From: Bacteroidia bacterium
GTDB taxonomy: Bacteria; Bacteroidota; Bacteroidia; Chitinophagales; Saprospiraceae
Reading direction: 5' to 3'
Length of the DNA: 64,000 bases
NCBI GenBank assembly: GCA_030430845.1
Contig: JAUIKE010000006.1
Span: forward strand, 1 to 64,000
The first letter of the stretch is position 1, and each line of letters opens with the position of its first letter. The notes under the pieces were generated by a model that made no database searches, was not told where the DNA came from, and saw only the letters and a program-made list of their open reading frames with translations. Of the stretch, positions 1 to 14,601 are shown one piece after another. A program made the position numbers and the translations under genes.

Positions 1-60
1 CTATAAATAAGCGGGTGATTTTTATGGGTTTAAATTAGAGAGCGGTCTCATATAAAACAA

Positions 61-94
61 AAGCCCTTGCAAGTCAACAACTTGCAAGGGCTTT
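61..94 (-). terminator. Terminator of the tRNA-Gly/tRNA-Leu operon
   Basis: A 13-bp perfect stem (AAGCCCTTGCAAG with its complement) has a 7-nt loop. On the minus strand it is followed by a T-rich run. It lies 6 nt past the 3' end of tRNA-Leu, where a rho-independent terminator for that operon is expected. Positions 1-60 hold nothing I recognise. Confidence 0.85.
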
Positions 95-99
95 AAAAG

Positions 100-520
100 T
101 ACCCGGAGCGGGAATCGAACCCGCACGGCCGCAATGGCCACAGGATTTTCTTACCATCTACAGCTTTCGCTGCTGCCGACAATATCGTCAGCATTTGTGG
201 TCTGGACTATCTCTTCAACCTGTCAGTTGCCAGTTATTAGTTGTCAGTTGATAGGGAAAGTCCGATCAACGAACAACCAGGAACGAACAACCAATTTAGC
301 TGCCTGCCGTCTAGTCTCTACACCTTCTCCGTACGCCGTAGCCTTTGCGAAGGCGTACCGGAACTTGGCTCGGGATTGCCATACCGGATATTTTATTTGG
401 CCAAAGGCCAACATCCAGCGTCAGGTTTCCCCGAATTTGACAGGTTCTACTCCAAGGATTTCTCCAAGGGCACTCAAATTAGCTTAAGTCCTGCGTGTCT
501 ACCAATTCCACCACCCGGGC
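100..520 (-). tRNA. tRNA-Leu(UAA), interrupted by a group I intron
   Basis: The 5' exon is 520-486 (35 nt) and the 3' exon 149-100 (50 nt). Joined, they give an 85-nt class II tRNA. The acceptor stem is GCCCGGG with CCGGGT, the D-loop contains AATTGGTAGAC, the variable arm is long, and the T-arm is GCGGG-TTCGATT-CCCGC. The spliced anticodon loop is CTTAAAA inside the stem CAGGA/TCCTG, so the anticodon is UAA. CCA is not encoded. The gap falls between U34 and A35, the site of the cyanobacterial/plastid tRNA-Leu intron. The gene lies 16 nt downstream of tRNA-Gly and shares its promoter. A scanner without an intron model would probably miss it or call it broken. Exon pairing is seen directly; splicing is inferred. 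Confidence 0.93.
150..485 (-). ncRNA. Group I (IC3-like) self-splicing intron in tRNA-Leu(UAA)
   Basis: The intron is 336 nt and ends in the expected terminal G (position 150). P1: the exon end CUU plus AA pairs with UUGAG (477-473), giving the conserved U-G wobble at the 5' splice site. P2 is a hairpin at 451-469. P3 is CCUGUC with GGCAGG. P4 is UCGGG with CCCGA, inside AAUCCCGAGCCAAG, a string close to what I recall of the Anabaena intron. P6 has a GC-rich extension (CGGTACGCC/GGCGTACGG, about 331-359). P7 is GACUA with UAGUC, flanked by GUAGAGACUAGACGG and GAGAUAGUCC. P9 and P9a end in GCAGCAGCGAAAGCUG, again like the cyanobacterial form. No homing endonuclease ORF is present. P8 (about 215-300) is enlarged by repeat-like sequence. 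Confidence 0.92.
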
Positions 521-536
521 GTTTGATTGGTATTCG

Positions 537-609
537 AGCGGATGACGAGATTCGAACCCGCGACCTCAACCTTGGCAAGGTTGCGCTCTACCAGCTGAGC
601 TACATCCGC
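537..609 (-). tRNA. tRNA-Gly(GCC)
   Basis: A complete 73-nt cloverleaf: acceptor stem GCGGATG/CATCCGC, D-arm TAGCTCAGCTGGTAGAG, anticodon loop TTGCCAA (anticodon GCC), T-arm GCGGG-TTCGAAT-CTCGT with one G-U type mismatch, discriminator T. It is the first gene of the minus-strand operon and is followed after 16 nt by the intron-containing tRNA-Leu. Confidence 0.96.
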
Positions 610-14433: not shown

Positions 14434-14465
14434 TTTGTCAGATGACAGAAAACCTTTTATATTTG
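14434..14465 (+). promoter_or_regulatory. Promoter of the SRP RNA
   Basis: -33 box TTTG (14434-14437), 20-bp spacer, -7 box TATATTTG (14458-14465). The predicted start about 6-7 nt downstream coincides with the base of the SRP RNA stem. This is the best-formed promoter in the window besides that of the tRNA operon. Confidence 0.85.
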
Positions 14466-14471
14466 CACCCT

Positions 14472-14560
14472 GAGCGGCACACGACCAGCTCCCTCTGAAC
14501 TCCCCCAGGGCGGAAACGCAGCAAGGGTAGGAGGTTGTAGCGGTGCGATGTGTCCGCTCT
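14472..14560 (+). ncRNA. ffs: Small signal recognition particle RNA (4.5S type)
   Basis: A single long hairpin of about 89 nt. The base GAGCGGACAC-type stem forms from GAGCGG-CACAC (14472) and GTGT-CCGCTC (14550-14559). The apical domain holds the conserved Ffh-binding loop, CCAGGGCGGAAACGCAGCAAGGGTAGG in two pieces: the GGAA tetraloop region flanked by CAGG and the AGCA bulge. It lacks the Alu domain, as expected outside some Gram-positives. It works with Ffh and FtsY in membrane protein targeting. Confidence 0.92.
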
Positions 14561-14601
14561 TCTTGTTTTAGAACATTTCGCCCTTTCATAACATTAACTT
14601 A

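Follow-up and report, generated by a model that had tools for sequence, protein, structure and literature searches.

Results

An intron-split tRNA-Leu(UAA) gene

The window, that is, the whole 64,000-nucleotide stretch analysed here (positions 1 to 64,000 of contig JAUIKE010000006.1, assembly GCA_030430845.1, a Bacteroidia bacterium of the Saprospiraceae), carries a split tRNA-Leu(UAA) gene at 520-100 on the minus strand, with exons of 35 and 50 nt. With its intron option on, ARAGORN places a tRNA-Leu(taa) gene at c[99,520] and gives its intron a length of 336 nt. The 5' exon (486..520, G1 to U34) and the 3' exon (100..149, A35 to A73, with an exact match in the whole-genome exon search) enclose the intron at 150..485. 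The joined exons, 520-486 and 149-100, fold into an 85-nt tRNA-Leu(UAA) plus one 3' base, with an anticodon loop that reads C32 U33 U34 A35 A36 A37 A38; CCA is encoded only in part. The junctions are ...GGACUU|AAGCUAAUUUGAG...GGUAAG|AAAAUCCUG, which places the insertion between U34 and A35 and gives the intron a terminal G. The original prediction, made from the letters of the window, had given the same site and the same 336-nt insert, and ARAGORN, the junctions and the joined-exon fold all agree with it. It had also called the tRNA perfect; the 85-nt fold with its UAA anticodon holds, but G1-U72 and G7-U66 are wobble pairs.

A tRNA-Gly(GCC) gene (536..609, minus strand, ARAGORN) lies 15 bases upstream of the Leu gene on the same strand, and this Gly-Leu gene order is seen again in relatives. 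Downstream of the Leu gene, at 60..94 on the minus strand, is a hairpin with a 16-pair stem that resembles an intrinsic terminator. Elsewhere in the window, a Bacteroidales-type small SRP RNA (RF04183, 77.6 bits) occupies 14465-14563 of the plus strand.

The insert matches the Rfam model RF00028 at 496-177 on the minus strand with 62.1 bits (E 2.4e-13) and so clears the curated covariance-model cut-off for group I introns, a gathering score of 50. The minimum free energy of the RNA fold has a z of -5.4 against shuffles. These results confirm that, as first proposed, the tRNA-Leu(UAA) gene of this Bacteroidota genome is interrupted by a true group I intron, and they place it on the minus strand. 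Its subgroup is expected to be IC3, from the intron family alone. A frame check of the intron found no homing endonuclease ORF, the longest open stretch on the sense strand being 58 codons; ORFs that cross the intron on the plus strand were dismissed as they are antisense and extend into the exons.

Structure and covariation of the intron

We wrote a structure from the window sequence, with P1, P2, P3, P4, P5, P6, P6a, P7, P8, P9, P9a and P9b (51 pairs), and examined it in an alignment of 50 tRNA-Leu(UAA) introns whose hosts include Bacteroidota, proteobacteria and phages, among others. Over the 50 homologues, 95.6% of the cells were paired, compared with 80.4% in shuffles and 29-45% when the partners were slid, and double changes were found in 391 cells compared with 112 in shuffles. 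The same site and junction rules recur in more than 130 homologues.

All elements lie on the minus strand. P1 (469..489) pairs the exon sequence ACUU|AA with UUUGAGU, and its U.G at the 5' splice site is present in 50/50 homologues. The 5' strand of P3, CCUGUC, lies with J3/4 at 433..444 and its partner, GGCAGG, at 303-308; P3 is 100% paired in the 50 sequences, with double changes in 5/6 pairs. The P4-P5 region (364..435), in which P4 is 98.7% paired, includes an extension of P5 (379-425) and, at 364-377, the core string AAUCCCGAGCCAAG. In the P6a/P6 stem-loop (325..363), P6a is 89% paired with double changes in 3/3 pairs. The 5' strand of P7, GACUA, is at 307..318 with its partner UAGUC within 199-211; P7 is also 100% paired, and one of its pairs is A-U in 28 sequences and U-A in 22. 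P8, 99% paired, carries a long repeat-rich hairpin extension (219..302), and P9, P9a and P9b, with a GAAA tetraloop and the terminal G, fill 150..205, where P9 is 95.5% and P9b 99.2% paired, with double changes. The pseudoknotted core of P3 and P7 with P4-P6 is thus backed by compensatory change, namely the double changes in P3 and in one P7 pair.

The P1 U-G, P3, P4, P7, P9 and terminal G that had been read from the sequence at the outset are therefore all present, and the two core strings quoted with them were located at 364-377 and 161-176. The original prediction had staked itself on an RF00028 match in 150-485 and on the P3 and P7 pairings; given the score of that match and the covariation of both helices, it passed these tests.

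The repeat-rich part of P8 (219-294; TTGTTCGTT / AACTGACAACTAATAACTG) is also found in the intron of the genus mate and is nearly absent elsewhere in the own genome. It is reminiscent of the P6b repeats known from trnL introns in Nostoc. A role as a dispersed repeat was rejected, since just two weak further matches occur in 9.1 Mb.

Predicted splicing and the probable dependence on it

The gene would give a precursor tRNA-Leu(UAA) with a group I ribozyme in its anticodon loop. The intron would fold into P3-P9 and P4-P6, with P1 formed between intron and 5' exon. Attack by a guanosine cofactor would cut the RNA behind U34; the exon end set free in this step would in turn attack behind the terminal G, so that U34 is joined to A35 and the intron is released. 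We predict that the window intron is very probably functional, and we infer that it is spliced in the cell.

The genome that contains the window is a draft of 9.1 Mb in 396 contigs, estimated to be 94.9% complete. Neither a tRNA search nor a blast of the joined exons found an uninterrupted tRNA-Leu(UAA) in this draft; the blast returned the two separate exons at 100% and other isoacceptors at about 76%. Intact tRNA-Leu genes are present for CAA, UAG, CAG and GAG. Because no uninterrupted gene was found in the draft assembly, the cell probably depends on splicing for UUA decoding, as the original prediction had put it for the case of a single UAA-Leu tRNA. With 396 contigs and 94.9% completeness, an intact UAA copy might lie in an assembly gap. 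One could thus suppose, from a draft assembly and a case for splicing drawn from sequence only, that the intron is inactive or that splicing is needless as an intact gene is hidden in an unassembled gap. We consider this very unlikely, because every core helix is retained and covarying, and because the gene is also split in the genus mate (99% complete) and in a relative assembled in 4 contigs. In each of these two genomes a blast of the joined exons gave two separated exons and contiguous matches of only 72-77% identity, with no high-identity contiguous copy of tRNA-Leu(UAA).

Further group I introns of the genome

RF00028 has three more matches in the own genome, none of which the original prediction had before it; their host genes were read from the exons. 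They split the initiator tRNA-fMet (contig C174, site U33|C34, intron L003), a second CAU tRNA (contig C193, site U36|A37, intron L002) and the tmRNA (contig C324, after T-loop base 7, intron L001). The second CAU tRNA resembles Ile2, and is called Ile2-like by that resemblance alone; the sole intact CAU tRNA found in this genome (L012) looks like an elongator Met. No tmRNA match other than the split one exceeds the cut-off, and no intact counterpart of the split fMet tRNA, Ile2-like CAU tRNA or tmRNA was found in the draft genome. Introns at T-loop position 8 of tmRNA have already been described as specific to Saprospiraceae (PMC11915505); the tmRNA intron of the own genome fits this description, whereas the window Leu intron belongs to a separate clade.

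The list of other bacterial tRNA introns in the original prediction, tRNA-Arg and tRNA-Ile of proteobacteria, is incomplete, since introns are also known in tRNA-fMet of cyanobacteria and in tmRNA of 21 phyla (PMC8450103, PMC11915505). The cyanobacterial fMet intron that carries I-Ssp6803I has a counterpart here: an fMet intron is present in the own genome, and relatives of this intron encode a PF11645 endonuclease, of the PD-(D/E)XK type to which Synechocystis I-Ssp6803I belongs (PMC1995217). It differs from the window Leu intron in its site, U33|C34, and in its separate clade. Among other relatives, an Ile2 intron gave a weak HNH match and one Leu intron (L067) has an HNH domain. Elsewhere in the phylum, group I introns were seen in the anticodon loop of an apparent tRNA-Arg(UCU) in other Bacteroidota (L237, L240-L242, L244-L246, L260), recurrently in family f38, and RF00028 matches in an apparent 23S rRNA context in other genomes (L239, L257, L256, L258, L259).

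In a tree of 147 sequences, introns sorted by insertion site. The fMet, Ile2 and tmRNA introns formed one clade each, and among the Leu introns those of the window and of the genus mate formed a pair (100/98). Each of the four introns of the own genome therefore falls in a site-specific clade, with its closest relatives among same-site introns of other genomes, and we rejected the idea that they are copies of one another. An origin of the Leu intron from one of the other three (fMet, CAU-tRNA or tmRNA) inside this genome, through reverse splicing for instance, might be suggested by the occurrence of four group I introns together and by the relatedness of the fMet and Leu introns; we give it next to no credence, however, as each intron is nearest to same-site introns elsewhere and, in a second tree, a branch (99/94) separates all Leu introns from the fMet introns.

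Distribution among bacteria

RF00028 matches occurred in 39/199 Saprospiraceae genomes and in 30/395 genomes of a sample of the phylum. A split tRNA-Leu(UAA) was recognised by an exact pattern, whose counts are lower bounds, in at least 16/398 Saprospiraceae genomes (10/112 genera, a patchy distribution) and in at least 3/395 of the phylum sample. Both genomes of the window genus carry the Leu intron. A scan of named genomes found at least 117 Leu(UAA) introns at the U34/A35 site. Most of the matches listed were in Alphaproteobacteria (Bradyrhizobium, Rhizobium, Sphingobium, Rhodobacteraceae) and Gammaproteobacteria, and the matches listed also included Bacteroidota, a Bdellovibrionales, a Phycisphaerales, a Bacilli MAG and UASB270; some are MAG contigs, with the host given as binned. 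In nearly all of those listed, the exons join at U34/A35 and the intron ends in G. The pattern fixes the core variant CGGGGAAACC, which the Anabaena reference used here does not have, so that the lack of cyanobacteria among the listed matches says nothing about them. The wider, overlooked distribution that the original prediction had offered as one option is thus what we see, mainly in Alpha- and Gammaproteobacteria and also in phages and plasmids.

The alpha- and gammaproteobacterial introns (L100-L216) share with the window intron the site, the junction rules and a core identity of up to 77%. They differ in their hosts and, in many Gammaproteobacteria, in a length of about 690 nt. Several such loci (L107, L108, L111 and others) have introns of about 690 nt without a long sense-strand ORF, possibly with an antisense gene or a decayed endonuclease. 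A gammaproteobacterial tRNA-Leu(UAA) intron was reportedly described around 2002, and non-cyanobacterial introns of this kind are not wholly new. We found no literature report of one in Bacteroidota, in a search that most subscription papers lay outside.

Phage and plasmid carriers

The search matched 30 viral contigs (L070-L099), at least 2 of which are false positives. Most of these matches are a tRNA-Leu(UAA) with an intron of about 200 nt within a tRNA cluster, and three of the contigs (L087, L097, L080) also carry virion or tail genes. The isolated jumbo Agrobacterium phage Atu_ph07 has an unannotated tRNA-Leu(UAA) at about 113 kb with a 278-nt intron (L264), and a metagenomic phage of 735 kb carries an intron-split tRNA-Leu(UAA) as well. 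These introns of phage tRNA clusters share the site and core of the window intron; unlike it, they are in viral genomes, are usually about 200 nt long, and some contain HNH or other endonuclease-like ORFs (L072, L080, L082). A 2014 review knew phage introns in protein genes only, despite the presence of phage tRNAs (PMC3984707). Further viral group I introns were observed: contig IMGVR_UViG_3300035037_000204 (L094) has three in one tRNA cluster, L305, L310 and L311 have them in other tRNA genes (Thr- and CAU/Gln-like), and many in L291-L318 are apparently in tmRNA-like or protein genes.

Plasmids that carry a split tRNA-Leu include a Bradyrhizobium conjugative plasmid and an IncL/M plasmid. 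In plasmid pCTX-M3, an unannotated tRNA-Leu-like gene, interrupted by a group I-like intron, lies at about 61.8 kb (L262), near aac(3)-IId. Matches similar to this pCTX-M3 gene occur in 1333 plasmid records, of widespread enterobacterial plasmids.

One pair of loci connects a phage and a chromosome. L072 is a phage-like contig with many tRNAs and an HNH-like ORF inside the intron, and L164 is a chromosomal locus of a Schleiferiaceae with cellular genes on its flanks; their split Leu genes are 94-98% identical. The pair is direct evidence of exchange between a phage and Bacteroidota, in one direction or the other.

Relationships among the tRNA-Leu(UAA) introns

The tRNA-Leu(UAA) intron is the textbook old cyanobacterial intron handed to plastids. 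The window intron has in common with cyanobacterial and plastid trnL introns the tRNA, the U34/A35 site, the U.G at the 5' splice site, the terminal G and a similar core; it differs in its phylum, in its long P5 and P8 extensions and in a core identity that is lower than that to proteobacterial introns. Over 199 core columns, identity to the window intron was 86% for the genus mate, at most 78% for other Bacteroidota, and up to 77% for Alphaproteobacteria, 73% for Gammaproteobacteria, 72% for phage and 72% for fMet introns, compared with 63% for Azoarcus and 62% for Anabaena, both of these being unconfirmed reference sequences. The Anabaena reference, the sole cyanobacterial sequence compared, is on a long branch in the tree. 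A cyanobacterial-type core pattern had no match in plasmids, and in viral contigs it led to introns of phage tRNA, tmRNA-like and protein genes.

Direct acquisition from a cyanobacterium or plastid, along with the tRNA-Leu gene, would explain the shared tRNA, site and similar core, and the introns of these trnL genes are the best-known ones (PMC4476775). It is nevertheless improbable in our view, as the closest proteobacterial, phage and Bacteroidota cores are more similar to the window intron than the one, unconfirmed, cyanobacterial reference. The cyanobacterial source towards which the original prediction leaned finds no support in these identities, in the many introns at this site in Alpha- and Gammaproteobacteria, or in the phage and plasmid carriers.

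Deep branching among the Leu introns is weak. A single clade of Bacteroidota Leu introns was not rejected (p-AU 0.27, or 0.47 without L164), so that vertical descent with losses and repeated transfer are both possible. Vertical descent inside Bacteroidota, accompanied by numerous losses, is an alternative that concerns the history of the intron and not its nature. It fits these values and the presence of the intron in both genomes of the genus, but it must accommodate the patchy occurrence by exact pattern in the family and the phylum sample, and the L072/L164 pair indicates that transfer occurs. We regard it as a possibility to be taken seriously, if not the one we favour.

Discussion

Taken together, the data lead us to explain the element as a predicted self-splicing group I intron, a member of a widespread lineage and probably not of local origin, and we hold this explanation with high confidence. 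The window intron would be one of a tRNA-Leu(UAA) intron lineage found across Pseudomonadota, Bacteroidota, and their phages and plasmids, gained or kept up probably by transfer of whole tRNA genes or by endonuclease-driven homing in relatives, and not by copying from introns of its own genome.

A broader proposal is tentative, and we put its chance at a little short of even. It holds that the tRNA-Leu(UAA) introns form one mobile pool that extends across Pseudomonadota, Bacteroidota and other phyla by way of phage tRNA clusters and plasmids, helped by several endonuclease families, that the cyanobacterial and plastid intron is one branch of this pool, and that some Saprospiraceae depend on introns in four translation genes.

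The results add a genome in which four translation genes are split, together with a broad distribution of the intron that includes phages and plasmids as carriers. The wide occurrence in other phyla, phages and conjugative plasmids makes the origin of the tRNA-Leu(UAA) intron a testable question again. Splitting by introns accounts for tRNA annotations that are missing from such genomes, and the four split genes, for the initiator tRNA, tRNA-Leu(UAA), the second CAU tRNA and tmRNA, would offer a natural test of cellular reliance on RNA self-splicing.
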